Below are positions 1-31,045 of a stretch of 64,000 nucleotides of DNA, one piece after another; within the stretch, counting starts at the first letter, position 1; each line of letters starts with the position of its first letter. Location of the stretch: assembly GCA_947172415.1 (NCBI GenBank), contig OX359192.1:5582501-5646500 (forward strand), read 5' to 3'. The position numbers and the translations under genes were made by a program. This DNA is from Chondrosia reniformis. Taxonomy: Eukaryota; Porifera; Demospongiae; Chondrillida; Chondrillidae. Under the pieces are notes generated by a model that did no database searches, had not been told where the DNA came from, and worked only from the letters and a program-made list of their open reading frames with translations.

Positions 1-1558
1 GTCTTTATGGCCATGTTTATCATGTTATTGTACCATCTACGGAGGGGAAAAGGTAGTTCAACCAGCCAATACCATTTAATTAGCTGTATTCTAATGTGAG
101 CTCACTATGTCCTTGCATCCATAGCTGGCATGAGGTTGTCTTATGAGGCCATTCAGTACCCAATGAAGGTGATGCATTTGCTAATGTTCTTGGAGATTCT
201 GCATGCCGTAACTGGAATTGTTAAAAGCAATTTGTTTTCATCTATTATTCAAGTACGTCTGGGTTTTAGTATCTAAATGGTTGTGGTTTAAGAGTACCTC
301 TCTGTGTAGATATGTGGACGCAATATGATGCTGTTCATGATAGTGTCTCCAGTGGAGCAACTTCACCAGCACCTGGTAGTGTTTACCTTGTTCTTTGCGT
401 GGACAGCAGTTGAGACCATCAGGTACGTATAATTACATGCGTCATTTCATATCCAGGTTTTCTCTTAGGGAGGGAGGTGGGGGCTTTCTCCGGAAGACCT
501 GGCTAATAGTACTGTATACATAATACCACAGCCTCCTCATCCTCATGTTGATTCACTTAGAGCATCACTCAAGTGCTACGTTTCACAACTAGTTATAGAT
601 TTCCTTTCCATATACCTTATCTCCCATGTGTGTGTGTATACATCTGGTTTTCTGCCGTGTCAGGTATCCATACTATGCCTTGTCTGCCCTCGATGTGGAG
701 TTAGGCATGGTCACTTGGCTCCGCTACACAGTCTGGATGGTTCTCTATCCAATGGGTGGTCTCTCAGAAGGTAAGGTTCACCAAGAGCTTCCCTTCGACT
801 GTGAATGCACTTCTACTTCCTGTTTTACAGTTCACTGTGAATGCACTACTACTTCCTGTTTTACAGTTCACTGTGAATGCACTTCTACTTCCTGTTTTAC
901 AGTTCACTGTGAATACACTTCTACTTCCTGTTTTACAGTTCACTGTGAATGCACTTCTACTTCCTGTTTTACAGTTCACTGTGAATGCACTACTACTTCC
1001 TGTTTTACAGTTCACTGTGAATGCACTTCTACTTCCTGTTTTACAGTTCACTGTGAATGCACTACTACTTCCTGTTTTACAGTTCACTGTGAATGCACTT
1101 CTACTTCCTGTTTTACAGTTCACTGTGAATACACTTCTACTTCCTGTTTTACAGTTCACTGTGAATGCACTTCTACTTCCTGTTTTACAGTTCACTGTGA
1201 ATACACTTCTACTTCCTGTTTTACAGTTCACTGTGAATGCACTTCTACTTCCTGTTTTACAGTTCACTGTGAATGCACTTCTACTTCCTGTTTTACAGTT
1301 CACTGTGAATGCACTTCTACTTCCTGTTTTACAGTTCACTGTGAATGCACTTCTACTTCCTGTTTTACAGTTGGCTGTGTTTGGTTGGCACTACCGCACA
1401 TAAAGGAACAAGGATTATTCTCATTTCAACTTCCAAATGAATTCAATTTTTCATTTGACCTCGCCACCTTCCTTCAAGTATACCTCTTTATGGTCCCGTG
1501 TGGTAAGTTGATACTATTAAGGTTATATGTGTCAGCTGACCTCATGCACCACCTCTGA
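1..1558 (+). CDS. HACD: 3-hydroxyacyl-CoA dehydratase (HACD/PTPLA/Phs1 family), 5'-partial
   Basis: This family dehydrates 3-hydroxyacyl-CoA in very-long-chain fatty acid elongation, as a multi-pass ER membrane protein. Exons read as 1-52, 125-252, 310-422, 664-770, 1371-1502 and 1536-1558, 185 codons in phase including the stop. The N-terminus lies outside the window. Family landmarks are FLEILHAVTG in exon 2, FFAWTAVETIRYPYYALSAL across exons 3-4, and LPNEFNFSFD in exon 5. The catalytic Tyr and Glu of Phs1, seven residues apart, are both present in YPMGGLSE (codons 746-748 and 767-769). The C-terminus after the last intron is short and lacks the usual basic tail, so the final exon is less certain. 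Intron 4 (771-1370, 600 bp) is almost entirely a minisatellite. Introns 4 and 5 are multiples of three and stop-free, so retaining either one would keep the frame open. Confidence 0.88.
795..1370 (+). repeat. 36-bp minisatellite, 16 units, filling HACD intron 4
   Basis: Sixteen near-identical 36-bp units differ mainly at two positions (C/T and T/A changes in the middle). Every unit ends in cttcctgttttacag, a pyrimidine tract plus AG that looks like a 3' splice site. The last unit supplies the acceptor that joins exon 4 to exon 5. Because 36 is a multiple of three and the unit has no stop in the gene frame, using an upstream acceptor would insert a multiple of 12 residues in frame. Normal use of the last acceptor is inferred from homology across the junction. 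Confidence 0.95.
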
Positions 1559-11574: not shown

Positions 11575-12045
11575 ATGCTTGCATGACTGCTATTCCGATT
11601 CTAATGGTGTCGCTTGGCTGTTATTCTGAAAATGAACTGCTAAATATGGCATGACTTGTGCTGAGCTTGTCCTAAAACAATGCCACTGGAACTAGATCAA
11701 CTTATTGTGGCAGTATTCATCACTTTTACCATACATAGTGTGAATATCTCACTTTCTTTTTAACAGGGTAGGCAATCATAAACAAAAAAAAACAAGTAAA
11801 TATTAAAAACTGAATCTAGAAGTATAGGTATGGCAGTGCTGCAAGATAGACTGGTACAAAATACTTAACAAAACAAGACATTGATCCTGTGGTAAGTCTA
11901 ACAATACAGAAGTGGTATACTAAAATATTAATCATATATACACGTCACTTCAGTGTTTGGGCTCACCAAGAATGATAGGCTTTGATAGCTGCATGAAGCA
12001 GGGATGGTATAGGTTTGGCAGACATTTATTCAAACTTTGCAATTG
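11575..12045. repeat. diverged duplicate, copy 1 (paired with 13105-13516)
   Basis: Several collinear blocks recur about 1.5 kb downstream: gaaaatgaactgctaaatat, gtgtgaatatctcactttct, aaaactgaatctagaagta and gggatggtata plus aggtttggcag, in the same order. Spacing between blocks differs, so the copies are old. The minus strand here has a broken frame including LVVVLHFVAEWNRGWCC that vaguely recalls a thioredoxin-like fold; I do not assign it. Confidence 0.8.
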
Positions 12046-13104
12046 GGTAGCCTATTCCCTATAGTTAGTAAAAATTATTCACAATTTAGAACTTGCATAA
12101 GTTCACATGCTAGTACTATTAATTCATTTGAAATAAAGAAGAAAACAATTTCAGAAATTATTAACCATTGCAATGCAAAGGTTGAGGACATTGAAACACA
12201 CTTTGACATCTAGAAAATCATGGATAAATGACTACAATATTGCTTTGTTGCTGATTTATGTAATGAAAATACATTGAATAGGGCGGTCATGCTATGTTTT
12301 CATACAGTTTGTAGTGGCTATACTACGGGCAAACTGTATGAAACACTTTCAGGATTCCTTTGACTATATACCATAAATTCCTTTATAGTAGCTAGATCCT
12401 AAGAATGGAAATGGCTGAAAATATGTACTTTCATTGGCCTGGACTGAGATAGATAACTCTAACAAATGATTCCAATCTGACTTGAAGGAAAATTCAAGTA
12501 TTATATAATTATAACTACCTAATCTGGACTTGTCTTATATACACATACAATGTAGCTACATACAGCTTAGTTTTAGTAAAATATATACGACTCCATTAAG
12601 GATAAAATTCAAATTTAAAACTATTTTATACAAAATATTAACTGCATGTCAAGCCTGAATGTGTGCATATATAATAAACTGCAAGTGCTTCCTCTAGTTG
12701 ACACTTGGTTGGGAAAAATGTAGAAAAAAATGATTGCTCAAACAACCATTCTATAGTTTGTTCTTTAAAAGTGCATGATTATAAGGAATGCATACACACT
12801 GTATATTAGTTATCCCATATACTGTACGTACCTTCCTTTTCCTTTTAGGTAATGGATAATATAATAGAGGTCCCACTGTAATTCCCCTTAACCATCTGTA
12901 TGTACCATAATGTTAGGTAATTATACGTATATACATACAAGCAATCCTTTTATTAAAACCATGCAGCATGCACACAGTTGGTAAATAGGTAGTGTAGATG
13001 TAATATCTACTTCTTACAGTTTACATGTATTCTCATAAAGTCTTGTATATATATATATAAGCCTAATATAATTAGCCAAGAATTAATTCCTAATTATTGT
13101 TTTC
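12046..13104. other. AT-rich DNA, nothing recognised
   Basis: About 1 kb with only short frames and simple TA-rich tracts (around 13047). No gene, repeat family or RNA was recognised. Confidence 0.6.
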
Positions 13105-13516
13105 ACAGCATGGCTGTTATTCCAATTCTACTGGTGCCACTTGGCTGTCATTATGAAAATGAACTGCTAAATATGGCATGACTTGTGTTGAGCTTGACCC
13201 TTTAGTCTGCTTTGTTATGTCCCATAACATAACCAGAACATTCTAACAAAGTTCTCTAATCAGTACACTCTTAAAATTAAAGACTTTCTCAACTAGTCCT
13301 ACTTATAATGACAATATTCATCACTTTTTTTCCATAACAAGGCATACTTTAGTGTGAATATCTCACTTTCTATATTTAACATAACAAGTAAAACAAAACA
13401 TTTTAAAACTGAATCTAGAAGTAAAGTTTAAGTGATATATATACATCACTTCTACACCATGAATGATAGTTGAAGTAGGGATGGTATACGTAGGTTTGGC
13501 AGGAGTTTGTTCAAAA
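13105..13516. repeat. diverged duplicate, copy 2, abutting the macrosatellite
   Basis: It repeats the block order of 11575-12045. Homology ends at ttcaaa, exactly where the first 169-bp satellite monomer begins (13517). The other copy continues into unrelated sequence at that point. This makes the left edge of the satellite complex unusually precise. Confidence 0.75.
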
Positions 13517-13685
13517 GTTAATGTATGGTGAGAGATAGGGCAAATTTTAAGTTTCATCAAAATTTCAAAAACCAATTGGACATGCTCCATAGATGTCTGT
13601 GAATGCTGACACAAAGATTTAGCTTCATATCTCTCCATTTTATGGAGTGACAGCCCTCAATATACATTAAATTCTGGTATACAAA
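13517..13685. repeat. satellite R1, single 169-bp monomer
   Basis: The first forward monomer of the 169-bp family, starting gttaatgtatggtgagagat. It is followed by a switch to inverted-orientation monomers at 13686. Confidence 0.9.
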
Positions 13686-14210
13686 GTTAATGTACATACA
13701 GTAACTTCGTATAGCAGTTATAAAAAGTACATGAAGCGCTGTAACTCTTCCACATTTAGAGATATGAATCTGAAACTCTATCTCAGTATTCACAGGGATG
13801 TATGAAAGGTTTTCATTGAGTTTTGCAAATTTTAATATCTACTCATATTTGCCCTATCTCTTACCATACATTAACTTAGTATAGCAGTAATAAAAGTACA
13901 TCAAGTGCTGTAACTCTTCCAAATGTAGAGATATGAATCTGAAACTCTATCTCAGTATTCACAGAGATGTATGTAAGGTTTTCATTGAGTTTTGCAAATT
14001 TTGATATCTACTCATATTTGCCTTATCTCTCACCATACATTAACTTCGTATAGCAGTAATAAAAAGTACATCAAGTGCTGTAATTCTTCCGAATGAAGAG
14101 ATATGAATCTAACACTCTATCTCATTATTCACAGAGATATATGAAATATTTTTAACGAATTTTGCAAATTTTAATACCTACTCAAATTTGCCCTATCTCT
14201 CACCATACAT
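13686..14210. repeat. satellite R2, three diverged inverted monomers
   Basis: These units are diverged reverse complements of R1. The end tttgccctatctctcaccat is shared almost perfectly with the reverse complement of R1, while the rest is roughly two-thirds similar by eye. Other copies of the core have two R2 units on this side instead of three. Confidence 0.85.
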
Positions 14211-15283
14211 TAGCTAACCCTTATTGCGTAATACTATAAATGGCCGACCTTGAGTAGGTATAAGAGTGAAATACGGTACTTCATATATTTCAGAAAATTA
14301 GAACTCTTTGAAAGACTTCTTATACACATGGATATGCACTGTGTAGTACTTGATTGTTGTTGAAGCAGTATTTATCCACGTATATTATATGGATGTCGTT
14401 AAAGTGAAATTTTGCCGATCGACGGCCAACGAAACTCCAAAGAAAAAAAGTTGGACCATACCGAACGCTACCATCCACGACGCTCAGAGGCCGGGATCGG
14501 TGGTAACGCTCTGCCGAGTTGAGCTTTGGGTGTCACTTGCGTGAGAAGAACCAGTTCTTCTCGATATGGCCGACTCATATGAATCCAAAGATATCAGATG
14601 CCAATCCCACATTACGTGGAACCCCCCCGAAATCCGGATTATTGGTGAGCACGTCTCTATGGCACCAACCGATTAGGAGACAGCTTCAGAGTCTAAGCGC
14701 TACCAACCTCTATGGGAACCGCAACCACCATAGAGATGTGTCCAGGTAGGCCTACTTTATAAGGTTTTGCGCTTCTATTTAAACAAGAAAATTTCAAAAG
14801 GAAACGATTGTGGTTGGCGCAATTCCATACTTAAGAATAGGATATTTGCGAGAAAAATGTAGTCAGATTATATCAAGTTAATTCGGGATGAGTGCATCGT
14901 TCCAAGCCATTTTAAAGGTATATCCAGTATTCGTGGTTCATCTAGAAACTGGGAAAAATGGATAGAATCCTGTAAGTGTCTTGATTGGCGGAGGAGACCA
15001 ACTTTTCTGGTCCCATGTAGAAACGATTTTAGCGAGAGGTGTTCCGATATGAACGTAAACTGGTATAACCAGCCACACTCAATCTCAATTGCAGTAATAG
15101 CGTAATGGCTACCTGCCTCTATGTAAAGACCTTCTGACAGCTGCGTTCTGGACTGTCCCTGCGTGTTTCTAGTTGCCCCATTCATGTCAAAACATTTTAA
15201 CTTGGTATGCCGATAATTTGCATAATAGTATCGCACGATATATATGCTACACCATTTGAGGTCGTATAGTAGAAATTTAATGT
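14211..15283. repeat. macrosatellite core, copy 1 (about 1.07 kb)
   Basis: Core sequence found four times almost identically, with a fifth truncated copy at 30247. It begins tagctaacccttattgcgta. It contains an 8-bp-arm hairpin (gagaagaa, ccag, ttcttctc) and a longer imperfect hairpin built on ctctatgg/ccatagag. It carries short frames of 64 and 76 codons (plus) and 139 codons (minus, 14868-15287). None resembles a transposase, reverse transcriptase or other known protein. The conservation of frames says nothing because the DNA copies are nearly identical. Confidence 0.9.
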
Positions 15284-15419
15284 ACATTATAGTGCTGTAA
15301 CTCTTCCGAATGAAGAATTATGGATCTGAAACTCTATCTCAGTATTCACAGAGATGTATGAAAGGTTTTCATTGAGTTTAGCAAATTTTGATATCTACTC
15401 ATATTTGCCCTATCTGTGA
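15284..15419. repeat. satellite R2, single inverted monomer right of core 1
   Basis: One diverged inverted monomer starting agtgctgtaactcttccgaa and ending tttgccctatctgtgacc, where orientation flips back to R1. The junction forms a local palindrome. Confidence 0.85.
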
Positions 15420-17785
15420 CCAAATGTATGGTGAGAGTTAGGGCAAATTTTAAGTTTCATCAAAATTTCAAAAACCCATTGGACATAATCCATAGATGTC
15501 TGTGAATGCTGACACAAAGATTTAGCTTCATATCTCTCCATTTGATAGAGTGACAGCCCTCAATATACATTAAATTCTGATATACAAAGTTAATGTATGG
15601 TGAGAGATAGGGCAAATTTTAAGTTTCATCAAAATTTCAAAAACCCATTGGACATGCTCCATAGATGTCTGTGAATGCTGACACAAAGATTTAGCTTCAT
15701 ATCTCTCCATTTGATAGAGTGACAGCCCTCAATATACAATAAATTCTGATATACAAAGTTAATGTATGGTGAGAGATAGGGCAAATTTTAAGTTTCATCA
15801 AAATTTCAAAAACCCATTGGACATGCTCCATAGATGTCTGTGAATGCTGAAACAAAGATTTAGCTTCATATCTCTCCATTTGATAGAGTGACAACCCTCA
15901 ATATACATTAAATTCTGATATACAAAGTTAATGTATGGTGAGAGATAGGGCAAATTTTAAGTTTCATCAAAATTTCAAAAACCCATTGGACATGCTCTAT
16001 AGATGTCTGTGAATGCTGACACAAAGGTTTAGCTTCATATCTCTCCATTTGATCAAGTGACAGCCCTCAATATACATTAAATTCTGATATACCAAGTTAA
16101 TGTATGGTGAGAGATAGGGCAAATTTTAAGTTTCATCAAAATTTCATAAACCCATTGGACATGCTCCATAGATGTCTGTGAATGCTGACACAAAGGTTTA
16201 GCTTCATATCTCTCCATTTGATCAAGTGACAGCCCTCAATATACATTAAATTCTGATATACAAAGTTAATGTATGGTGAGAGATAGGGCAAATTTTAAGT
16301 TTCATCAAAATTTCAAAAACCCATTGGACATGTTCTATAGATGTCTGTGAATGCTGACACAAAGGTTTAGCTTCATATCTCTCCATTTGATAGAGTGACA
16401 GCCCTCAATATACATTAAATTCTGATATACAAAGTTAATGTATGGTGAGAGATAGGGCAAATTTTAAGTTTCATCAAAATTTCAAAAACCCATTGGACAT
16501 GCTCCATAGATGTCTGCGAATGCTGAAACAAAGATTTAGCTTCATATCTCTCCATTTGATAGAGTGACAGCCCTCAATATACATTAAATTCTGATATACA
16601 AAGTTAATGTATGGTGAGAGATAGGGCAAATTTTAAGTTTCATCAAAATTTCAAAAACCAATTGGACATGCTCCATAGATGTCTGTGAATGCTGAAACAA
16701 AGATTTAGCTTCATATCTCTCCATTTGATAGAGTGACAGCCCTCAATATACATTAAATTCTGATATACAAAGTTAATGTATGGTGAGAGATAGGGCAAAT
16801 TTTAAGTTTCATCAAAATTTCAAAAACCCATTGGACATTCTCCATGGGTGTCTGTGAATGCTGACACAAAGGTTTAGCTTCATATCTCTCCATTTGATAG
16901 AGTGACAGCCCTCAATATACATTAAATTCTGATATACAAAGTTAATGTATGGTGAGAGATAGGGCAAATTTTAAGTTTCATCAAAATTTCAAAAACCCAT
17001 TGGACATTCTCCATGGGTGTCTGTGAATGCTGACACAAAGGTTTAGCTTCATATATCTCCATTTGATCAAGTGACAGCCCTCAATATACATTAAATTCTG
17101 ATATACAAAGTTAATGTATGGTGAGAGATAGGGCAAATTTTAAGTTTCATCAAAATTTCAAAAACCCATTGGACATGCTCTATAGATGTCTGTGAATGCT
17201 GACACAAAGGTTTAGCTTCATATCTCTCCATTTGATAGAGTGACAGCCCTCAATATACATTAAATTCTGATATACAAAGTTAATGTATGGTGAGAGATAG
17301 GGCAAATTTTAAGTTTCATCAAAATTTCAAAAACCCATTGGACATTCTCCATGGGTGTCTGTGAATGCTGACACAAAGGTTTAGCTTCATATATCTCCAT
17401 TTGATCAAGTGACAGCCCTCAATATACATTAAATTCTGATATACAAAGTTAATGTATGGTGAGAGATAGGGCAAATTTTAAGTTTCATCAAAATTTCAAA
17501 AACCCATTGGACATGCTCTATAGATGTCTGTGAATGCTGACACAAAGGTTTAGCTTCATATCTCTCCATTTGATAGAGTGACAGCCCTCAATATACATTA
17601 AATTCTGATATACAAAGTTAATGTATGGTGAGAGATAGGGCAAATTTTAAGTTTCATCAAAATTTCAAAAACCCATTGGACATGCTCCATAGATGTCTGT
17701 GAATGCTGACACAAAGATTTAGCTTCATATCTCTCCATTTGATGGAGTGACAGCCCTCAATATACATTAAATTCTGGTATACAAA
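15420..17785. repeat. satellite array A: 14 R1 monomers of 169 bp
   Basis: Head-to-tail monomers starting gttaatgtatggtgagag with exact 169-bp spacing. Variants occur at a few fixed sites (agattta/aggttta, gatagag/gatcaag, ctccatag/ctctatag/ctccatgg). Confidence 0.95.
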
Positions 17786-18145
17786 GTTAATGTACATACA
17801 GTAACTTCGTATAGCAGTAATAAAAAGTACATGAAGCGCTGTAACTCTTCCACATTTAGAGATATGAATCTGAAACTCTATCTCAGTATTCACAGAGATG
17901 TATGAAAGGCATCCAATGAGTTTTGCATATTTTGATATATATCTACTCATATTTGCCCTATCTCTCACCATACATTAACTTCGTATAGCAGTAATAAAAA
18001 GTACATCAAGTGCTGTAATTCTTCCGAATGAAGAGATATGAATCTAACACTCTATCTCATTATTCACAGAGATATATGAAATATTTTTAACGAATTTTGC
18101 AAATTTTAATACCTACTCAAATTTGCCCTATCTCTCACCATACAT
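17786..18145. repeat. satellite R2, two inverted monomers left of core 2
   Basis: Two diverged inverted monomers (360 bp) between array A and core 2. The same 360-bp block recurs before cores 3 and 4. Confidence 0.9.
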
Positions 18146-19218
18146 TAGCTAACCCTTATTGCGTAATACTATAAATGGCCGACCTTGAGTAGGTATAAGA
18201 GTGAAATACGGTACTTCATATATTTCAGAAAATTAGAACTCTTTGAAAGACTTCTTATACACATGGATATGCACTGTGTAGTACTTGATTGTTGTTGAAG
18301 CAGTATTTATCCACATATATTATATGGATGTCGTTAAAGTGAAATTTTGCCGATCGACGGCCAACGAAACTCCAAAGAAAAAAAGTTGGACCATACCGAA
18401 CGCTACCATCCACGACGCTCAGAGGCCGGGATCGGTGGTAACGCTCTGCCGAGTTGAGCTTTGGGTGTCACTTGCGTGAGAAGAACCAGTTCTTCTCGAT
18501 ATGGCCGACTCATATGAATCCAAAGATATCAGATGCCAATCCCACATTACGTGGAACCCCCCCGAAATCCGGATTATTGGTGAGCACGTCTCTATGGCAC
18601 CAACCGATTAGGAGACAGCTTCAGAGTCTAAGCGCTACCAACCTCTATGGGAACCGCAACCACCATAGAGATGTGTCCAGGTAGGCCTACTTTATAAGGT
18701 TTTGCGCTTCTATTTAAACAAGAAAATTTCAAAAGGAAACGATTGTGGTTGGCGCAATTCCATACTTAAGAATAGGGTATTTGCGAGAAAAATGTAGTCA
18801 GATTATATCAAGTTAATTCGGGATGAGTGCATCGTTCCAAGCCATTTTAAAGGTATATCCAGTATTCGTGGTTCATCTAGAAACTGGGAAAAATGGATAG
18901 AATCCTGTAAGTGTCTTGATTGGCGGAGGAGACCAACTTTTCTGGTCCCATGTAGAAACGATTTTAGCGAGAGGTGTTCCGATATGAACGTAAACTGGTA
19001 TAACCAGCCACACTCAATCTCAATTGCAGTAATAGCGTAATGGCTACCTGCCTCTATGTAAAGACCTTCTGACAGCTGCGTTCTGGACTGTCCCTGCGTG
19101 TTTCTAGTTGCCCCATTCATGTCAAAACATTTTAACTTGGTATGCCGATAATTTGCATAATAGTATCGCACGATATATATGCTACACCATTTGAGGTCGT
19201 ATAGTAGAAATTTAATGT
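18146..19218. repeat. macrosatellite core, copy 2
   Basis: Nearly identical to core 1; I noticed single-base differences, for example tccacata here against tccacgta in cores 1 and 4. Confidence 0.9.
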
Positions 19219-19355
19219 ACATTATAGTGCTGTAACTCTTCCGAATGAAGAGTTATGGATCTGAAACTCTATCTCAGTATTCACAGAGATGTATGAAAGG
19301 TTTTCATTGAGTTTAGCAAATTTTGATATCTACTCATATTTGCCCTATCTGTGAC
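19219..19355. repeat. satellite R2, single inverted monomer right of core 2
   Basis: Same structure as after core 1, with the palindromic switch to R1 at its end. Confidence 0.85.
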
Positions 19356-20368
19356 CAAATGTATGGTGAGAGTTAGGGCAAATTTTAAGTTTCATCAAAA
19401 TTTCAAAAACCCATTGGACATAATCCATAGATGTCTGTGAATGCTGACACAAAGATTTAGCTTCATATCTCTCCATTTGATAGAGTGACAGCCCTCAATA
19501 TACATTAAATTCTGATATACAAAGTTAATGTATGGTGAGAGATAGGGCAAATTTTAAGTTTCATCAAAATTTCAAAAACCCATTGGACATGCTCCATAGA
19601 TGTCTGTGAATGCTGACACAAAGATTTAGCTCCATATCTCTCCATTTGATAGAGTGACAGCCCTCAATATACATTAAATTCTGATATACAAAGTTAATGT
19701 ATGGTGAGAGATAGGGCAAATTTTAAGTTTCATCAAAATTTCAAAAACCCATTGGACATGCTCTATAGATGTCTGTGAATGCTGACACAAAGGTTTAGCT
19801 TCATATCTCTCCATTTGATCAAGTGACAGCCCTCAATATACATTAAATTCTGATATACAAAGTTAATGTATGGTGAGAGATAGGGCAAATTTTAAGTTTC
19901 ATCAAAATTTCAAAAACCCATTGGACATGCTCCATAGATGTCTGTGAATGCTGACACAAAGGTTTAGCTTCATATCTCTCCATTTGATAGAGTGACAGCC
20001 CTCAATATACATTAAATTCTGATATACAAAGTTAATGTATGGTGAGAGATAGGGCAAATTTTAAGTTTCATCAAAATTTCAAAAACCCATTGGACATGCT
20101 CTATAGATGTCTGTGAATGCTGACACAAAGATTTAGCTTCATATCTCTCCATTTGATAGAGTGACAGCCCTCAATATACATTAAATTCTGATATACAAAG
20201 TTAATGTATGGTGAGAGATAGGGCAAATTTTAAGTTTCATCAAAATTTCAAAAACCCATTGGACATGCTCCATAGATGTCTGTGAATGCTGACACAAAGA
20301 TTTAGCTTCATATCTCTCCATTTGATGGAGTGACAGCCCTCAATATACATTAAATTCTGGTATACAAA
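19356..20368. repeat. satellite array B: 6 R1 monomers
   Basis: Six 169-bp units by start-to-start spacing, of the same type as array A. Confidence 0.95.
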
Positions 20369-20728
20369 GTTAATGTACATACAGTAACTTCGTATAGCAG
20401 TAATAAAAAGTACATGAAGCGCTGTAACTCTTCCACATTTAGAGATATGAATCTGAAACTCTATCTCAGTATTCACAGAGATGTATGAAAGGCATCCAAT
20501 GAGTTTTGCATATTTTGATATATATCTACTCATATTTGCCCTATCTCTCACCATACATTAACTTCGTATAGCAGTAATAAAAAGTACATCAAGTGCTGTA
20601 ATTCTTCCGAATGAAGAGATATGAATCTAACACTCTATCTCATTATTCACAGAGATATATGAAATATTTTTAACGAATTTTGCAAATTTTAATACCTACT
20701 CAAATTTGCCCTATCTCTCACCATACAT
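20369..20728. repeat. satellite R2, two inverted monomers left of core 3
   Basis: The same 360-bp inverted pair as before core 2. Confidence 0.9.
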
Positions 20729-21801
20729 TAGCTAACCCTTATTGCGTAATACTATAAATGGCCGACCTTGAGTAGGTATAAGAGTGAAATACGGTACTTC
20801 ATATATTTCAGAAAATTAGAACTCTTTGAAAGACTTCTTATACACATGGATATGCACTGTGTAGTACTTGATTGTTGTTGAAGCAGTATTTATCCACATA
20901 TATTATATGGATGTCGTTAAAGTGAAATTTTGCCGATCGACGGCCAACGAAACTCCAAAGAAAAAAAGTTGGACCATACCGAACGCTACCATCCACGACG
21001 CTCAGAGGCCGGGATCGGTGGTAACGCTCTGCCGAGTTGAGCTTTGGGTGTCACTTGCGTGAGAAGAACCAGTTCTTCTCGATATGGCCGACTCATATGA
21101 ATCCAAAGATATCAGATGCCAATCCCACATTACGTGGAACCCCCCCGAAATCCGGATTATTGGTGAGCACGTCTCTATGGCACCAACCGATTAGGAGACA
21201 GCTTCAGAGTCTAAGCGCTACCAACCTCTATGGGAACCGCAACCACCATAGAGATGTGTCCAGGTAGGCCTACTTTATAAGGTTTTGCGCTTCTATTTAA
21301 ACAAGAAAATTTCAAAAGGAAACGATTGTGGTTGGCGCAATTCCATACTTAAGAATAGGGTATTTGCGAGAAAAATGTAGTCAGATTATATCAAGTTAAT
21401 TCGGGATGAGTGCATCGTTCCAAGCCATTTTAAAGGTATATCCAGTATTCGTGGTTCATCTAGAAACTGGGAAAAATGGATAGAATCCTGTAAGTGTCTT
21501 GATTGGCGGAGGAGACCAACTTTTCTGGTCCCATGTAGAAACGATTTTAGCGAGAGGTGTTCCGATATGAACGTAAACTGGTATAACCAGCCACACTCAA
21601 TCTCAATTGCAGTAATAGCGTAATGGCTACCTGCCTCTATGTAAAGACCTTCTGACAGCTGCGTTCTGGACTGTCCCTGCGTGTTTCTAGTTGCCCCATT
21701 CATGTCAAAACATTTTAACTTGGTATGCCGATAATTTGCATAATAGTATCGCACGATATATATGCTACACCATTTGAGGTCGTATAGTAGAAATTTAATG
21801 T
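20729..21801. repeat. macrosatellite core, copy 3
   Basis: Appears identical or almost identical to core 2 by eye. Confidence 0.9.
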
Positions 21802-21938
21802 ACATTATAGTGCTGTAACTCTTCCGAATGAAGAGTTATGGATCTGAAACTCTATCTCAGTATTCACAGAGATGTATGAAAGGTTTTCATTGAGTTTAGC
21901 AAATTTTGATATCTACTCATATTTGCCCTATCTGTGAC
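21802..21938. repeat. satellite R2, single inverted monomer right of core 3
   Basis: As after cores 1 and 2. Confidence 0.85.
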
Positions 21939-24900
21939 CAAATGTATGGTGAGAGTTAGGGCAAATTTTAAGTTTCATCAAAATTTCAAAAACCCATTGG
22001 ACATAATCCATAGATGTCTGTGAATGCTGACACAAAGATTTAGCTTCATATCTCTCCATTTGATAGAGTGACAGCCCTCAATATACATTAAATTCTGATA
22101 TACAAAGTTAATGTATGGTGAGAGATAGGGCAAATTTTAAGTTTCATCAAAATTTCAAAAACCCATTGGACATGCTCCATAGATGTCTGTGAATGCTGAC
22201 ACAAAGATTTAGCTTCATATCTCTCCATTTGATAGAGTGACAGCCCTCAATATACATTAAATTCTGATATACAAAGTTAATGTATGGTGAGAGATAGGGC
22301 AAATTTTAAGTTTCATCAAAATTTCAAAAACCCATTGGACATGCTCCATAGATGTCTGTGAATGCTGACACAAAGGTTTAGCTTCATATCTCTCCATTTG
22401 ATCAAGTGACAGCCCTCAATATACATTAAATTCTGATATACAAAGTTAATGTATGGTGAGAGATAGGGCAAATTTTAAGTTTCATCAAAATTTCAAAAAC
22501 CCATTGGACATGCTCCATAGATGTCTGTGAATGCTGACACAAAGATTTAGCTTCATATCTCTCCATTTGATAGAGTGACAGCCCTCAACATACATTAAAT
22601 TCTGATATACAAAGTTAATGTATGGTGAGAGATAGGGCAAATTTTAAGTTTCATCAAAATTTCAAAAACCCTTTGGACATGCTCCATAGATGTCTGTGAA
22701 TGCTGACACAAAGGTTTAGCTTCATATCTCTCCATTTGATAGAGTGACAGCCCTCAATATACATTAAATTCTGATATACAAAGTTAATGTATGGTGAGAG
22801 ATAGAGCAAATTTTAAGTTTCATCAAAATTTCAAAAACCCATTGGACATGCTCCATAGATGTCTGTGAATGCTGACACAAAGATTTAGCTTCATATCTCT
22901 CCATTTGATAGAGTGACAGCCCTCAATGTACATTAAATTCTGATATACAAAGTTAATGTATGGTGAGAGATAGGGCAAATTTTAAGTTTCATCAAAATTT
23001 CAAAAACCCATTGGACATGCTCCATAGATGTCTGTGAATGCTGACACAAAGGTTTAGCTTCATATCTCTCCATTTGATAGAGTGACAGCCCTCAATATAC
23101 ATTAAATTCTGATATACAAAGTTAATGTATGGTGAGAGATAGGGCAAATTTTAAGTTTCATCAAAATTTCAAAAACCCATTGGACATGCTCCATAGATGT
23201 CTGTGAATGCTGACACAAAGATTTAGCTTCATATCTCTCCATTTGATAGAGTGACAGCCCTCAATATACATTAAATTCTGATATACAAAGTTAATGTATG
23301 GTGAGAGATAGGGCAAATTTTAAGTTTCATCAAAATTTCAAAAACCCATTGGACATGCTCCATAGATGTCTGTGAATGCTGACACAAAGATTTAGCTTCA
23401 TATCTCTCCATTTGATAGAGTGACAGCCCTCAATATACATTAAATTCTGATATAAAAAGTTAATGTATGGTGAGAGATAGGGCAAATTTTAAGTTTCATC
23501 AAAATTTCAAAAACCCATTGGACATGCTCCATAGATGTCTGTGAATGCTGACACAAAGGTTTAGCTTCATATCTCTCCATTTGATAGAGTGACAGCCCTC
23601 AATATACATTAAATTCTGATATACAAAGTTAATGTATGGTGAGAGATAGGGCAAATTTTAAGTTTCATCAAAATTTCAAAAACCCATTGGACATGCTCCA
23701 TAGATGTCTGTGAATGCTGACACAAAGATTTAGCTTCATATCTCTCCATTTGATAGAGTGACAGCCCTCAATATACATTAAATTCTGATATACAAAGTTA
23801 ATGTATGGTGAGAGATAGGGCAAATTTTAAGTTTCATCAAAATTTCAAAAACCCATTGGACATGCTCCATAGATGTCTGTGAATGCTGACACAAAGATTT
23901 AGCTTCATATCTCTCCATTTGATAGAGTGACAGCCCTCAATGTACATTAAATTCTGATATACAAAGTTAATGTATGGTGAGAGATAGGGCAAATTTTAAG
24001 TTTCATCAAAATTTCAAAAACCCATTGGACATGCTCCATAGATGTCTGTGAATGCTGACACAAAGGTTTAGCTTCATATCTCTCCATTTGATCAAGTGAC
24101 AGCCCTCAATATACATTAAATTCTGATATACAAAGTTAATGTATGGTGAGAGATAGGGCAAATTTTAAGTTTCATCAAAATTTCAAAAACCCATTGGACA
24201 TGCTCCATAGATGTCTGTGAATGCTGACACAAAGATTTAGCTTCATATCTCTCCATTTGATAGAGTGACAGCCCTCAATATACATTAAATTCTGATATAC
24301 AAAGTTAATGTATGGTGAGAGATAGGGCAAATTTTAAGTTTCATCAAAATTTCAAAAACCCATTGGACATGCTCCATAGATGTCTGTGAATGCTGACACA
24401 AAGGTTTAGCTTCATATCTCTCCATTTGATAGAGTGACAGCCCTCAATATACATTAAATTCTGATATACAAAGTTAATGCATGGTGAGAGATAGGGCAAA
24501 TTTTAAGTTTCATCAAAATTTCAAAAACCCATTGGACATGCTCCATAGATGTCTGTGAATGCTGACACAAAGATTTAGCTTCATATCTCTCCATTTGATA
24601 GAGTGACAGCCCTCAATGTACATTAAATTCTGATATACAAAGTTAATGTATGGTGAGAGATAGGGCAAATTTTAAGTTTCATCAAAATTTCAAAAACCCA
24701 TTGGACATGCTCCATAGATGTCTGTGAATGCTGACACAAAGGTTTAGCTTCATATCTCTCCATTTGATAAAGTGACAGCCCTCAATATACATTAAATTCT
24801 GATATACAAAGTTAATGTATGGTGAGAGATAGGGCAAATTTTAAGTTTCATCAAAATTTCAAAAACCCATTGGACATGCTCCATAGATGTCTGTGAATGC

Positions 24901-27900
24901 TGATACAAAGATTTAGCTCCATATCTCTCCATTTGATAGAGTGACAGCCCTCAATGTACATTAAATTCTGATATACAAAGTTAATGTATGGTGAGAGATA
25001 GGGCAAATTTTAAGTTTCATCAAAATTTCAAAAACCCATTGAACATGCTCCATAGATGTCTGTGAATGCTGACACAAAGATTTAGCTTCATATCTCTCCA
25101 TTTGATAGAGTGACAGCCCTCAATATACATTAAATTCTGATATACAAAGTTAATGTATGGTGAGAGATAGGGCAAATTTTAAGTTTCATCAAAATTTCAA
25201 AAACCCATTGGACATGCTCTATAGATGTCTGTGAATGCTGACACAAAGGTTTAGCTTCATATCTCTCCATTTGATAGAGTGACAGCCCTCAATATACATT
25301 AAATTCTGATATACAAAGTTAATGTATGGTGAGAGATAGGGCAAATTTTAAGTTTCATCAAAATTTCAAAAACCCATTGGACATGCTCCATAGATGTCTG
25401 TGAATGCTGACACAAAGGTTTAGCTTCATATCTCTCCATTTGATCAAGTGACAGCCCTCAATATACATTAAATTCTGATATACAAAGTTAATGTATGGTG
25501 AGAGATAGGGCAAATTTTAAGTTTCATCAAAATTTCAAAAACCCATTGGACATGCTCCATAGATGTCTGTGAATGCTGACACAAAGGTTTAGCTTCATAT
25601 CTCTCCATTTGATAGAGTGACAGCCCTCAATATACATTAAATTCTGATATACAAAGTTAATGTATGGTGAGAGATAGGGCAAATTTTAAGTTTCATCAAA
25701 ATTTCAAAAACCCATTGGACATGCTCTATAGATGTCTGTGAATGCTGACACAAAGATTTAGCTTCATATCTCTCCATTTGATAGAGTGACAGCCCTCAAT
25801 ATACATTAAATTCTGATATACAAAGTTAATGTATGGTGAGAGATAGGGCAAATTTTAAGTTTCATCAAAATTTCAAAAACCCATTGGACATGCTCCATAG
25901 ATGTCTGTGAATGCTGACACAAAGGTTTAGCTTCATATCTCTCCATTTGATAGAGTGACAGCCCTCAATATACATTAAATTCTGATATACAAAGTTAATG
26001 TATGGTGAGAGATAGGGCAAATTTTAAGTTTCATCAAAATTTCAAAAACCCATTGGACATGCTCTATAGATGTCTGTGAATGCTGACACAAAGATTTAGC
26101 TTCATATCTCTCCATTTGATAGAGTGACAGCCCTCAATATACATTAAATTCTGATATACAAAGTTAATGTATGGTGAGATATAGGGCAAATTTTAAGTTT
26201 CATCAAAATTTCAAAAACCCATTGGACATGCTCCATAGATGTCTGTGAATGCTGACACAAAGATTTAGCTTCATATCTCTCCATTTGATAGAGTGACAGC
26301 CCTCAATATACATTAAATTCTGATATACAAAGTTAATGTATGGTGAGAGATAGGGCAAATTTTAAGTTTCATCAAAATTTCAAAAACCCATTGGACATGC
26401 TCCATAGATGTCTGTGAATGCTGACACAAAGGTTTAGCTTCATATCTCTCCATTTGATAGAGTGACAGCCCTCAATATACATTAAATTCTGATATACAAA
26501 GTTAATGTATGGTGAGAGATAGGGCAAATTTTAAGTTTCATCAAAATTTCAAAAACCCATTGGACATGCTCCATAGATGTCTGTGAATGCTGACACAAAG
26601 ATTTAGCTTCATATCTCTCCATTTGATAGAGTGACAGCCCTCAATATACATTAAATTCTGATATACAAAGTTAATGTATGGTGAGAGATAGGGCAAATTT
26701 TAAGTTTCATCAAAATTTCAAAAACCCATTGGACATGCTCCATAGATGTCTGTGAATGCTGACACAAAGATTTAGCTTCATATCTCTCCATTTGATAGAG
26801 TGACAGCCCTCAATGTACATTAAATTCTGATATACAAAGTTAATGTATGGTGAGAGATAGGGCAAATTTTAAGTTTCATCAAAATTTCAAAAACCCATTG
26901 GACATGCTCCATAGATGTCTGTGAATGCTGACACAAATGTTTAGCTTCATATCTCTCCATTTGATAGAGTGACAGCCCTCAATATACATTAAATTCTGAT
27001 ATACAAAGTTAATGTATGGTGAGAGATAGGGCAAATTTTAAGTTTCATCAAAATTTCAAAAACCCATTGGACATGCTCCATAGATGTCTGTGAATGCTGA
27101 CACAAAGGTTTAGCTTCATATCTCTCCATTTGATAGAGTGACAGCCCTCAATATACATTAAATTCTGATATACAAAGTTAATGTATGGTGAGAGATAGGG
27201 CAAATTTTAAGTTTCATCAAAATTTCAAAAACCCATTGGACATGCTCCATAGATGTCTGTGAATGCTGACACAAAGGTTTAGCTTCATATCTCTCCATTT
27301 GATCAAGTGACAGCCCTCAATATACATTAAATTCTGATATACAAAGTTAATGTATGGTGAGAGATAGGGCAAATTTTAAGTTTCATCAAAATTTCAAAAA
27401 CCCATTGGACATGCTCTATAGATGTCTGTGAATGCTGACACAAAGGTTTAGCTTCATATCTCTCCATTTGATAGAGTGACAGCCCTCAATGTACATTAAA
27501 TTCTGATATACAAAGTTAATGTATGGTGAGAGATAGGGCAAATTTTAAGTTTCATCAAAATTTCAAAAACCCATTGGACATGCTCCATAGATGTCTGTGA
27601 ATGCTGACACAAATGTTTAGCTTCATATCTCTCCATTTGATAGAGTGACAGCCCTCAATATACATTAAATTCTGATATACAAAGTTAATGTATGGTGAGA
27701 GATAGGGCAAATTTTAAGTTTCATCAAAATTTCAAAAACCCATTGGACATGCTCCATAGATGTCTGTGAATGCTGACACAAAGGTTTAGCTTCATATCTC
27801 TCCATTTGATAGAGTGACAGCCCTCAATATACATTAAATTCTGATATACAAAGTTAATGTATGGTGAGAGATAGGGCAAATTTTAAGTTTCATCAAAATT

Positions 27901-28190
27901 TCAAAAACCCATTGGACATGCTCCATAGATGTCTGTGAATGCTGACACAAAGGTTTAGCTTCATATCTCTCCATTTGATAGAGTGACAGCCCTCAATATA
28001 CATTAAATTCTGATATACAAAGTTAATGTATGGTGAGAGATAGGGCAAATTTTAAGTTTCATCAAAATTTCAAAAACCCATTGGACATGCTCCATAGATG
28101 TCTGTGAATGCTGACACAAAGATTTAGCTTCATATCTCTCCATTTGATGGAGTGACAGCCCTCAATATACATTAAATTCTGGTATACAAA
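21939..28190. repeat. satellite array C: 37 R1 monomers
   Basis: The longest array, about 6.25 kb. Spacing stays at 169 bp. Neighbouring monomers often alternate between agattta and aggttta variants, and a gtacatta variant recurs, suggesting weak dimeric or higher-order repeat structure from block duplication. Confidence 0.95.
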
Positions 28191-28550
28191 GTTAATGTAC
28201 ATACAGTAACTTCGTATAGCAGTAATAAAAAGTACATGAAGCGCTGTAACTCTTCCACATTTAGAGATATGAATCTGAAACTCTATCTCAGTATTCACAG
28301 AGATGTATGAAAGGCATCCAATGAGTTTTGCATATTTTGATATATATCTACTCATATTTGCCCTATCTCTCACCATACATTAACTTCGTATAGCAGTAAT
28401 AAAAAGTACATCAAGTGCTGTAATTCTTCCGAATGAAGAGATATGAATCTAACACTCTATCTCATTATTCACAGAGATATATGAAATATTTTTAACGAAT
28501 TTTGCAAATTTTAATACCTACTCAAATTTGCCCTATCTCTCACCATACAT
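28191..28550. repeat. satellite R2, two inverted monomers left of core 4
   Basis: The same 360-bp inverted pair as before cores 2 and 3. Confidence 0.9.
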
Positions 28551-29626
28551 TAGCTAACCCTTATTGCGTAATACTATAAATGGCCGACCTTGAGTAGGTA
28601 TAAGAGTGAAATACGGTACTTCATATATTTCAGAAAATTAGAACTCTTTGAAAGACTTCTTATACACATGGATATGCACTGTGTAGTACTTGATTGTTGT
28701 TGAAGCAGTATTTATCCACGTATATTATATGGATGTCGTTAAAGTGAAATTTTGCCGATCGACGGCCAACGAAACTCCAAAGAAAAAAAGTTGGACCATA
28801 CCGAACGCTACCATCCACGACGCTCAGAGGCCGGGATCGGTGGTAACGCTCTGCCGAGTTGAGCTTTGGGTGTCACTTGCGTGAGAAGAACCAGTTCTTC
28901 TCGATATGGCCGACTCATATGAATCCTTAAAGATATCAGATGCCAATCCCACATTACGTGGAACCCCCCCGAAATCCGGATTATTGGTGAGCACGTCTCT
29001 ATGGCACCAACCGATTAGGAGACAGCTTCAGAGTCTAAGCGCTACCAACCTCTATGGGAACCGCAACCACCATAGAGATGTGTCCAGGTAGGCCTACTTT
29101 ATAAGGTTTTGCGCTTCTATTTAAACAAGAAAATTTCAAAAGGAAACGATTGTGGTTGGCGCAATTCCATACTTAAGAATAGGGTATTTGCGAGAAAAAT
29201 GTAGTCAGATTATATATCAAGTTAATTCGGGATGAGTGCATCGTTCCAAGCCATTTTAAAGGTATATCCAGTATTCGTGGTTCATCTAGAAACTGGGAAA
29301 AATGGATAGAATCCTGTAAGTGTCTTGATTGGCGGAGGAGACCAACTTTTCTGGTCCCATGTAGAAACGATTTTAGCGAGAGGTGTTCCGATATGAACGT
29401 AAACTGGTATAACCAGCCACACTCAATCTCAATTGCAGTAATAGCGTAATGGCTACCTGCCTCTATGTAAAGACCTTCTGACAGCTGCGTTCTGGACTGT
29501 CCCTGCGTGTTTCTAGTTGCCCCATTCATGTCAAAACATTTTAACTTGGTATGCCGATAATTTGCATAATAGTATCGCACGATATATATGCTACACCATT
29601 TGAGGTCGTATAGTAGAAATTTAATG
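28551..29626. repeat. macrosatellite core, copy 4
   Basis: Same as the other cores except small indels: gaatccttaaag where others have gaatccaaag, and an extra ta in attatatatcaa. It shares the tccacgta variant with core 1. Confidence 0.9.
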
Positions 29627-30246
29627 TACATTATAGTGCTGTAACTCTTCCGAATGAAGAGTTATGGATCTGAAACTCTATCTCAGTATTCACAGAGATG
29701 TATGAAAGGTTTTCATTGAGTTTAGCAAATTTTGATATCTACTCATATTTGCCCTATTTGTCACCAAATGTATGGTGAGAGATAGGGTAAATTTTAAGTT
29801 TCATCAAAATTTCAAAAACCCATTGGACATGCTCTATAGATGTCTGTGAATGATGACACAAAGATTTAGCTTCATATCTCTCCATTTGATAGAGTGACAG
29901 CCCTCAATGTACGTTAAATTCTGGTATACAAAGTTAATGTATGGTGAGAGATAGGGCAAATTTTAAGTTTCATCAAAATTTCAAAAACACATTGGACATG
30001 CTCCATAGATGTCTTTAAATGCTGACACAAAGATTTAGCTTCATATCTCTCCATTTGATAGAGTGACAGCCCTCAATGTATATTAAATTCTGGTATACAA
30101 AGTTAATGTATGGTGAGAGATAAGGCAAATTTTAAGTTTCATCAAAATTTCAAAAACCCATTGGACATGCACTTTAGATGTCTGTGAATGCTGACACAAA
30201 GATTTGGCTTCATATCTCGCCATTTGATAGAGTTACAGAACTACAG
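29627..30246. repeat. one R2 monomer then array D: 3 more diverged R1 monomers
   Basis: R2 runs to about 29764; R1 units start near 29765, 29933 and 30102. They carry more substitutions than units in arrays A-C, and the last is truncated, as expected at the edge of a satellite where homogenisation fails. Confidence 0.9.
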
Positions 30247-30405
30247 TTAATGTACTGTTTTGTTAGAGAAAATTGCATAATACAATATATGGCCGACCGT
30301 TAGAAGGTATAATATTATAATAAAGACAAAAATTCCATACTATATCTGAAAATCTAGAATACTTTCCAATTTTTTTATACATATGGATATGCACTGTGTA
30401 GTACT
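30247..30405. repeat. truncated, diverged fifth core copy
   Basis: It begins like the other cores (gcataatac, atggccgacc) and ends at ggatatgcactgtgtagtac, matching the first ~140 bp of the core with many substitutions. A foldback element follows at once. Confidence 0.8.
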
Positions 30406-30419
30406 ATATATATATATAT

Positions 30420-31045
30420 TTAGAAATCCAAGTGATCCCTAGGATAATCAGTATTTTAAATAGTACATATAGTTGCTGGCTTTGAAATCCTCAACTACTG
30501 CATAGAGAGTAGTAGTTGATACAGATAATCCAATTGTAAGCTAGAACACATGGCCTACCAATTACCTTTTCACACCTTAGTATAGACTGAAGATTCATTT
30601 GCATAATCAACAGGGTTAGAGACCATTTTGTAACTTGTATGCAAGGACATAAAAGGCCATGCAAGGCCTTTATTATACGTATGTCATATGATGTCCCTTG
30701 TGTACAAGTTACAAAATGGTCTCTAACCCTGTTGATTATGCGAATGCATGCATGCAACTGACCATCGGTATTCTTAGCCCCCTCACAATGCAAATCAAAT
30801 CTGCTGTGGTCATTAGCTGAGACCCCTTTAAGACTGGAACCTTTGTTGATATATGGCATGGCGATGCATCATCTTCAGTCTATACTAAGTTGTGAAAAGG
30901 TAATTGGTAGGCCGTATGTTCTAGCTTGCAATTGGATGATCTGTATCAACTACTACTCTCTATGCAGTAGTTGAGGATTTCAAAGCCTGCAACTATATGT
31001 ACTATTTAAAATACTGATTATCCTAGGGGTCACTTGGATTTCTAA
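30420..31045. mobile_element. nested foldback element
   Basis: Outer inverted-repeat arms of about 175 bp (30420-30594 and 30871-31045) start ttagaaatccaagtga on both ends and differ at only a few positions. Inside lies a second inverted repeat (30601-30650 against 30690-30741, gcataatcaacagggttaga and its complement) around an aaaggcc hairpin. TA repeats and gcactgtgtag flank both sides. No transposase is present, so it is a non-autonomous foldback or MITE-like element. Confidence 0.85.

Follow-up and report, generated by a model that had tools for sequence, protein, structure and literature searches.

A quantised macrosatellite of the sponge Chondrosia reniformis as the possible spacer of a putative multi-copy RNA gene

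Organization of the locus

On chromosome 4 of Chondrosia reniformis, a macrosatellite combines four cores, all in the same direction, with arrays of 169-bp monomers that vary in length. Which part of such a repeat is kept alike between copies, and what might keep it so? We addressed this in a window of 64,000 nt, the whole stretch of DNA analysed here (GCA_947172415.1, contig OX359192.1, positions 5,582,501 to 5,646,500). An earlier note on this DNA had described the locus as a constant block of 1569 bp plus n × 169 bp, and this was borne out exactly: TAGCTAACCCTTATTGCG opens every core, at positions 14211, 18146, 20729 and 28551, and the core-start spacings of 3935, 2583 and 7822 bp, less 14, 6 and 37 times 169 bp, leave 1569 bp in all three cases. 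The features of the locus are listed in Table 1.

The 21-bp head of the forward monomer (up to 3 substitutions) occurs 61 times within the window. This gives 60 successive spacings, of which 56 measure 169 bp exactly and the remaining four 1903, 1738, 1738 and 1742 bp; TRF reported a single array (15423-28199, period 169, 75 copies). The idea of one fixed block holds for the 1569-bp remainder but not for every unit, since unit 1 contains one additional inverted monomer (1903 versus 1738 bp; 3.1 versus 2.1 copies in TRF) and unit 4 is longer by 4 bp. Inverted monomers do lie beside the cores, as had been described, but they belong to a second subtype, whose complementarity to the forward monomer is about 70-77%, and are not its plain inversion.

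The left limit of the macrosatellite (13515/13516) interrupts a copy of another dispersed repeat, which does not continue elsewhere in the window; four other copies of this repeat pass through the corresponding site unbroken. On the right, the macrosatellite stops at about 30405, where a fragment resembling the opening ~140 bp of the core (76%) ends. Six ORFs within the locus and at its edges contained no Pfam domains. The locus is flanked by ORFs with Forkhead and Rad4 domains.

Table 1. Features of the macrosatellite, in positions of the window
Feature	Position	Strand	Remark
Whole macrosatellite	13516..30405	+	four units with cores, three inner arrays, monomers at the edges, and the truncated start of a fifth core
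Left-edge forward monomer	13520..13688	+	abuts the break in the other dispersed repeat
Inverted (second-subtype) monomers left of core 1	13695..14212	-	about three; TRF
Core 1	14211..15290	+	
Core 2	18146..19225	+	
Core 3	20729..21808	+	
Core 4	28551..29634	+	
Partial inverted monomer right of core 1	15291..15422	-	head to head with forward array
Forward array 1	15423..17788	+	14 monomers of 169 bp
Two inverted monomers left of core 2	17795..18147	-	TRF; likewise 20378-20730, 28200-28552
Forward array 2	19358..20371	+	6 monomers
Forward array 3	21941..28193	+	37 monomers
Forward array 4	29767..30238	+	3 edge monomers, last one shortened
Fragment like core positions 13-140	30272..30405	+	76%; stops before TA repeat
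Near-invariant block in core 1	14451..14754	-	proposed RNA gene
Near-invariant block in core 2	18386..18689	-	
Near-invariant block in core 3	20969..21272	-	
Near-invariant block in core 4	28791..29096	-	
TATA-like box ahead of block	14755..14762	-	TTATAAAG on the minus strand; also from 18690, 21273, 29097
T-run past block	14443..14449	-	7 T on the minus strand; also from 18378, 20961, 28783
Coding-start remnant	14389..14508	+	40 codons; overlaps first ~60 bp of block, antisense to proposed RNA

Change of spacer length by whole monomers

The three inner arrays have identical first monomers and identical last monomers, with different interiors, and 34 of the 61 monomers in the window are distinct. 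Such a combination of shared ends and variable interiors is consistent with unequal exchange. Over 1907 bp, units 2 and 3 show no difference; unit 1 departs from them by 14 substitutions and unit 4 by 12, besides gaps. Core spacing is also quantised in other clusters: for those on chromosomes 1 and 2, among the matches listed, the best period was 169.5 bp (mean cosine 0.539, 163 pairs), against a maximum of 0.263 in 200 jittered control sets scanned in 2-bp steps. Chance is excluded, as these units are also found on other chromosomes and control searches with reversed patterns had 0 matches. We regard the change of spacer length by whole monomers via unequal exchange as well supported. With four kilobase-long head-to-tail units that are locally near-identical, and with length changing in monomer steps, the locus has the properties of a macrosatellite, in line with the hierarchical tandem series proposed earlier.

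A near-invariant block within the core

What the earlier note overlooked is the part that mainly stays alike between loci, a module of ~306 bp (core positions 241-546) that has the look of an RNA gene. We aligned the copies in the window with those of loci chosen by a tag outside the block and grouped them by hand into subfamilies, one of which, B, is mixed (identity within B of 0.758 over core 1-240). In 20 of the 25 aligned copies, block identity between subfamilies was 0.994-0.998, equal to that within subfamilies (0.993-1.000). The flanks of the block are mostly 69-87% identical between subfamilies: 0.785-0.868 for core 1-240, and 0.688-0.757 for core 547-640 in five of the six comparisons, the exception being A versus B with 0.970. 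The other five aligned copies (W2-W4, L015a and L016b) were omitted as near-duplicate or partial. Core hits that were fragments, interrupted or cut by the locus end had been excluded before alignment (those in L010, L011, L013, L017-L023, L026 and L028); block pieces in the excluded L010, L013, L018 and L022 are 96-100% identical.

On the minus strand, the block runs from a TATA-like box at its upstream edge to a T-run at the other edge. Among 53 copies profiled, all of them selected through a 44-bp tag within the block, the TATA-like box was present in 51 and the T-run in all 53, counts that come from related and hence not independent copies in an AT-rich genome, with no random control. Neither an A box nor a B box was found in the proposed core RNA.

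A diverged relative with a match to an HDV-like ribozyme

A diverged relative, F2, gave 78 matches to a 32-bp tag, 70 of them exact, distributed over all 14 chromosomes. F2 too spans TATA to T-run; a TATA-like box upstream and a T-run at the other end, as in RNA polymerase III genes with an external TATA (type 3), are found in both the core and F2. The fetched copies, L053-L059, represent 7 of the 40 scored. Identity was 0.973 within TATA to T-run versus 0.746 and 0.759 outside (7 copies; L059 was excluded from this comparison, as its left part is missing). On the same strand, 7 of the 8 F2 copies examined scored above the gathering cut-off of the HDV-like ribozyme model RF02682, and the eighth reached 42.8 versus 44. 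We treat this stretch as a match to the ribozyme model, with cleavage predicted. Counted from an assumed start site, 28 nt after TATA, to the start of the ribozyme, the F2 RNA would be 289 nt long. The sequence upstream of TATA is poorly conserved in F2, one A-box-like match was observed, and the segment common to most scored copies ends about 160 bp past the ribozyme. No HDV-like match was found in the core with Rfam.

A coding block was considered and rejected. Frame-breaking indels occur in both the core and the F2 family, indicating that the module is non-coding, although P0001-P0003 (3 of 4 matches) are longer open copies. In locus L022, the core start is continuous with a broken coding sequence, from which we infer that a coding ancestor existed; this remnant has what we take to be a HIRAN-like look. 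A search for Pfam domains found none in the two coding-remnant pieces of L022 or in P0001.

The RNA-gene proposal and DNA-level exchange

Each unit is made of a core and a spacer of ~169-bp satellite monomers, and the units of the locus form a single tandem cluster within a large repeat family. In our proposal, the core module would be a minus-strand gene whose RNA is roughly 290 nt long, with a TATA-like box, a body and a T-run terminator as for RNA polymerase III, and the satellite would form the variable spacer of this dispersed, multi-copy gene. Drift would alter the flanks, whereas the module would stay alike through selection on the RNA combined with exchange between copies. This reading of the satellite as the spacer of a repeated gene for a putative ~290-nt RNA is tentative, and we place it just short of probable. 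If it is correct, the sponge has hundreds of near-identical gene copies for an RNA absent from Rfam, spaced by a satellite that varies in whole steps. It would then provide a clear case of a satellite array as a gene spacer, and two natural endings for related RNAs.

A broader version of this reading is possible, though it lies on the unlikely side. The module would then represent a new class of structured animal RNA of ~290 nt, with about 750 satellite-associated and about 78 dispersed gene copies, ending in a T-run in one family and in a self-cleaving HDV-like ribozyme in the other; the macrosatellite would be the spacer of the gene family, and dosage or RNA-level selection would keep the block invariant.

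Alternatively, the block could be homogenised by DNA-level exchange alone, as a recently spread gene-conversion or homing-like module with no RNA under selection. The equal identity of the block between and within subfamilies agrees with such exchange, as do an indel at core 376 and SNPs at 499 and 513, which cross subfamily lines, and a single deletion junction in the coding remnant that is common to the tagged cores. If there is no RNA gene, an effective exchange mechanism is needed to maintain a module that, among the copies compared, is more than 99% alike inside flanks that mostly differ by 13-31%. However, in the core family and in F2, which are related but distinct, the conserved stretch is bounded by a TATA-like box and a T-run, edges for which pure conversion offers no reason, and F2 copies are mostly far apart. 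We consider exchange alone unlikely, and retain the RNA-gene reading as the preferred one.

Folding and searches for known RNAs

The predicted folds of the proposed RNA are unremarkable. The core minus strand gave z-scores of -1.64 and -1.44, the whole core -0.59 (plus) and -1.00 (minus), and the plus strand of the core was slightly better (-1.83 versus -1.44; -2.71 versus -1.55). For F2, the values were -0.60 and -0.52, or -0.10 and -0.45 with the ribozyme included. A long-range helix formed in both families is a weak signal, with 25 of 26 paired cells compared to at most 24 in 60 column shuffles. When the 23 polymorphic sites of the block were placed on the fold, 9 were unpaired (the overall unpaired fraction is 0.304) and 3 kept the pair, so that overall these sites lend the fold no support; L013, whose block is cut by an inserted element, was left out of this test.

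The Rfam 15 covariance models gave no match in the block, the only listed match (E 3.8) being at 29111-29134, outside it. We rejected a tRNA, rRNA, snRNA or hammerhead, none of which was found in the core or the monomers, and a telomerase RNA was rejected by eye, the proposed RNA containing no TTAGGG template. Retrozymes carry a hammerhead ribozyme in a tandem monomer; no hammerhead was detected between 13000 and 31000 (Rfam, E up to 5).

Genomic distribution of the family

A genome search with the 44-bp core tag, which lies inside the block, found 704 exact copies and 751 with up to 3 mismatches. Among the matches listed (100 of the 704), the exact tags are all on chromosomes 1 and 2, in 34 groups, and those on chromosome 1 extend from 0.07 to 10.33 of 10.41 Mb; core tags were also among the matches listed on chromosomes 3-7. 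Exact core or block patterns had 0 matches in bacterial genomes and viral contigs (from which records near this genome were possibly excluded), and plasmids gave no match. The earlier note had set its hierarchical satellite against a core occurring alone, with no arrays. The first 20 loci were selected from the core-tag list for their isolated appearance, and 19 of 20 core-tag loci carry monomers, the twentieth being a 67-bp fragment.

The family consists of hundreds of dispersed copies, many of them singletons. This dispersal, and the coding ancestor indicated by L022, would suit an ordinary non-autonomous transposon similar to Helentron/HINE elements, with an internal satellite and with the core and arrays transposing as a unit. 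Cg_HINE, a Helentron-type element of Crassostrea gigas, is reported to have satellite-like central repeats in a constant array orientation (PMC7492417). In Chondrosia, by contrast, the orientation of the monomers relative to the core differs between loci, and the edges of the repeat block in 20 loci, inspected by eye, fall at varied monomer or core points with no common terminus, unlike the fixed ends of HINE. Moreover, the window contains no continuation of the dispersed repeat that is cut at the left edge. The idea of an element with a fixed end at core 140 was dropped, since the core continues beyond this point in most copies. We judge such a transposon to be quite improbable.

A structural satellite, in which a near-nucleosomal monomer matters for centromere or heterochromatin and the core is passive, would suit the 169-bp monomer and the long tandem clusters but is very improbable, and the centromere-specific role suggested earlier is unsupported: instead of one main site per chromosome there are many (on chromosome 1 and, among the matches listed, chromosome 2), the locus here sits between genes, and monomers of other loci are often just 72-85% like the forward monomer of the window while the block stays alike.

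Comparison with known systems

In rDNA and 5S-type arrays, a conserved RNA gene alternates with a subrepeat spacer, and the array is homogenised by unequal exchange. The proposed RNA gene resembles these systems in combining a putative conserved RNA gene with a spacer whose length varies in whole subrepeats, but the Chondrosia module belongs to no Rfam family and its copies are scattered, in clusters and as singles. Macrosatellites and higher-order alpha satellite are hierarchical tandem repeats with a near-nucleosomal monomer and in-register exchange. The Chondrosia repeat shares all these properties with them, but its two monomer subtypes are arranged head to head, each of its units contains a core that is not satellite, and it is not confined to one site per chromosome.

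Like the units described here, Cg_HINE pairs conserved single-copy parts with satellite-like monomer arrays in dispersed units. It is reported to have one array orientation and defined left and right flanks with substructures (PMC7492417), whereas the Chondrosia units have variable orientation and ends, an internal conserved part and quantised tandem clusters.

In the open-licence library searched, we found no paper on sponge satellite DNA and tandem repeats, or on Chondrosia satellite DNA, and the papers listed there on HDV-like ribozymes, retrotransposons and sponges named no such module in the title or the start of the abstract. In R2-type retrotransposons, an HDV-like ribozyme is reported to form the 5' end of the element (PMC3414825). 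The F2 stretch resembles it in matching the HDV-like Rfam model, but the F2 ribozyme would instead cut off the 3' end of the ~290-nt RNA.

Unit layout and array evolution

The window lies at C4:5582501-5646500, within a 117.38-Mb genome of 15 contigs; the Chondrosia reniformis genome note gives the assembly a QV of 69.8 (PMC12181767). The spacing arithmetic of the earlier note proved exact: once 14, 6 and 37 monomer lengths (169 bp each) are subtracted from the distances between the four core starts, 1569 bp remain each time. Successive monomer heads, of which the window holds 61, were exactly 169 bp apart in 56 of 60 pairs. The block that the earlier note took as constant is however not strictly fixed, unit 1 having one inverted monomer more and unit 4 being longer by 4 bp. 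The monomers described as inverted are not plain inversions of the forward monomer but form a subtype of their own, whose complementarity to it is about 70-77%, so the unit holds two monomer subtypes, head to head.

In-register exchange had also been proposed. The three inner arrays open with identical monomers and also close with identical ones, and the interiors vary (34 of the 61 monomers are distinct). Units 2 and 3 are identical across 1907 bp; relative to them unit 4 shows 12 substitutions and unit 1 shows 14, gaps not counted. Array ends alike, varied interiors and near-identical units are what unit duplication with in-register exchange predicts. Within array 3, the 37-monomer forward array, differences between monomers hardly depended on lag (1.9-2.4), and hence no multi-monomer sub-repeat was seen there.

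Quantised spacing holds beyond the window, in the clusters listed on chromosomes 1 and 2. The first 100 of 704 exact core tags, i.e. those listed, all on these two chromosomes, formed 34 groups (15 of them singletons), and 63 of 66 neighbouring cores at most 13 kb apart were co-oriented. For within-cluster differences of neighbour distances among these tags (163 pairs), a scan of 140-200 bp gave a best period of 169.5 bp with a mean cosine of 0.539; the maximum in 200 jittered controls, scanned in 2-bp steps, was 0.263.

Positions of the locus, its parts and other features
Feature	Position in window	Position elsewhere	Remark
Locus	13516-30405		four core units with ~169-bp monomer arrays
Core starts	14211; 18146; 20729; 28551		units 1-4
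Invariant block		core 241-546	near-invariant; proposed RNA on minus strand
TATAAATGG motif		core 25	plus strand
ATG		core 179	plus strand
Conserved island	14231-14250 (e.g.)	core 21-40	outside block
Conserved island	14315-14370 (e.g.)	core ~105-160	outside block; also alone in locus L023
Conserved island	14391-14410 (e.g.)	core 181-200	outside block
Insertion within invariant block		L013 5303-9648	~4.3 kb; CCCGAAATCCGG at both sides; similar inverted ends
Insertion in core		L020 5543-6101	carries a 59-bp core piece, inverted, twice
RF02682 match		L028 8966-9038	46.9 bits
Left-edge dispersed repeat family	13236-13515		parts; family >1.1 kb
Weaker relatives of that family	11690-12583		
Inverted-repeat element	30420-31045		175-bp inverted ends, 96% identical
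36-bp tandem repeat	798-1379		16 copies; three frames open
21-bp tandem arrays	51787-51929; 52808-52930		~0.9 kb apart; apparently mutual reverse complements
20-bp minisatellite	43037-43336		
18-bp minisatellite	46445-46764		reads HTPGLL repeats

A near-invariant block within diverging cores

A 23-bp core tag matched the genome 535 times with at most two mismatches, and its reversed control not at all. Twenty isolated-looking loci among the first 100 of these matches were fetched, and in 19 the core was paired with monomers, the twentieth being a 67-bp fragment; the core occurring alone, which would have spoken for an ordinary transposon family, was thus not the pattern found. The cores of these loci divide into subfamilies. 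In an alignment of 25 copies, fragments and interrupted cores excluded, the block of about 306 bp was near-invariant throughout. Twenty of the 25 were grouped by hand into A (11), B (2), B2 (4) and C (3); between these subfamilies the block was 0.994-0.998 identical, against 0.785-0.868 over core 1-240 and 0.688-0.757 over core 547-640, where A versus B was the exception (0.970). Group B was itself heterogeneous on the left side (0.758 within B). The same profile was obtained for 53 copies from the window, the earlier loci and 20 further ones, a profile conditioned on the exact 44-bp in-block tag by which the latter were chosen; this tag is exact in 704 of 751 genome matches.

A predicted RNA gene and its relative F2

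On the minus strand, the block begins at a TATA-like box in 51 of the 53 copies and ends at a T-run in all 53, the copies being related; all four window cores have both. The two exceptions are L013, which is interrupted by an inserted element, and L043, which has TAATATAG. Frame-breaking indels rule out a coding function of the block, and no Rfam match to it was found.

Locus L028 contains a diverged relative of the block, belonging to a separate dispersed family, F2. Of 135 F2 candidates 40 copies were scored, most spanning a segment of about 613 bp or more, and a 32-bp F2 tag had 78 matches with at most two mismatches (70 exact), mostly far apart, on all 14 chromosomes. Identity among seven copies was 0.973 from TATAAATAG to the T-run versus 0.746 and 0.759 outside. 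Directly after the RNA-like part, on the same strand, L028 matches RF02682, the Rfam model of an HDV-like ribozyme; seven further copies (L053-L059) scored 47, 47, 45.4, 45.4, 44.5, 44.2 and 42.8 bits against a cut-off of 44. In this sponge genome the best-matching model was the one from Faecalibacterium prausnitzii. Rfam gave no HDV-like ribozyme in the core itself. With transcription starting 28 nt after the TATA box, as assumed, and self-cleavage at the point where the ribozyme begins, the predicted F2 RNA would have 289 nt; the corresponding core RNA, its start likewise assumed, would have about 290 nt.

Shuffled sequences folded as low as the core RNA in 18 of 300 cases, and in 11 of 150 in a second run, only a modest advantage for the core RNA; its plus strand was slightly better in z than the minus, which counts against the strand chosen. 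The F2 fold was no better than shuffles (73 of 300 and 39 of 150 as low; 47 of 100 with the ribozyme). A long-range helix common to core and F2 was paired in 25 of 26 cells; none of 60 column shuffles exceeded 24. The case for an RNA therefore rests on the block edges and the ribozyme match in F2, not on folding.

We tentatively favor, as the most likely reading at somewhat less than even confidence, that the units form a predicted RNA gene in many copies, with satellite DNA as its spacer. The TATA and T-run counts, drawn from related copies and not set against a random control, lower that confidence slightly. Unequal exchange would set the spacer length and make neighbors homogeneous, while the module would be held alike by exchange combined with selection on the RNA. 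According to the principal rival, exchange keeps the block alike with no RNA product: an indel at core 376 and two SNPs (499 and 513) recur in several subfamilies and point to exchange, and it is the block edges and the F2 ribozyme that speak for a product. A Helentron-like element or a centromeric satellite, the latter a role raised in the earlier note, is less likely than either.

A coding ancestor of the core

The plus strand of the core carries the TATAAATGG motif, an ATG and a 40-codon remnant starting MDVVKVKF; the first ~60 bp of the block lie within the remnant, which runs antisense to the proposed RNA. In L022 the same coding start runs on into a broken coding sequence, and three of four proteins found in an outside database have this start and, judged from a letter comparison, about 30 extra bases at the junction. 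The core thus descends from an element or gene with a coding start, the remainder having been lost. The conserved islands outside the block perhaps represent the promoter that once drove the lost coding sequence, together with its 5' leader.

Edges of the locus

Across the 20 loci the edges of the repeat blocks vary in position. At the left edge, the array begins within a copy of another dispersed repeat, whose corresponding site is uninterrupted in four further copies (L029-L032, 94-97% identical mutually). The remainder of the cut repeat was not found rightwards in the window, so the array did not arrive here through a clean insertion leaving both halves. At the right edge, core 13-140 recurs as a 76%-matching fragment, followed by a TA repeat and then by the inverted-repeat element. 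GCACTGTGTAG, with a TA repeat close after, flanks this element on both sides; the ends of the element also turn up in copies across many chromosomes.
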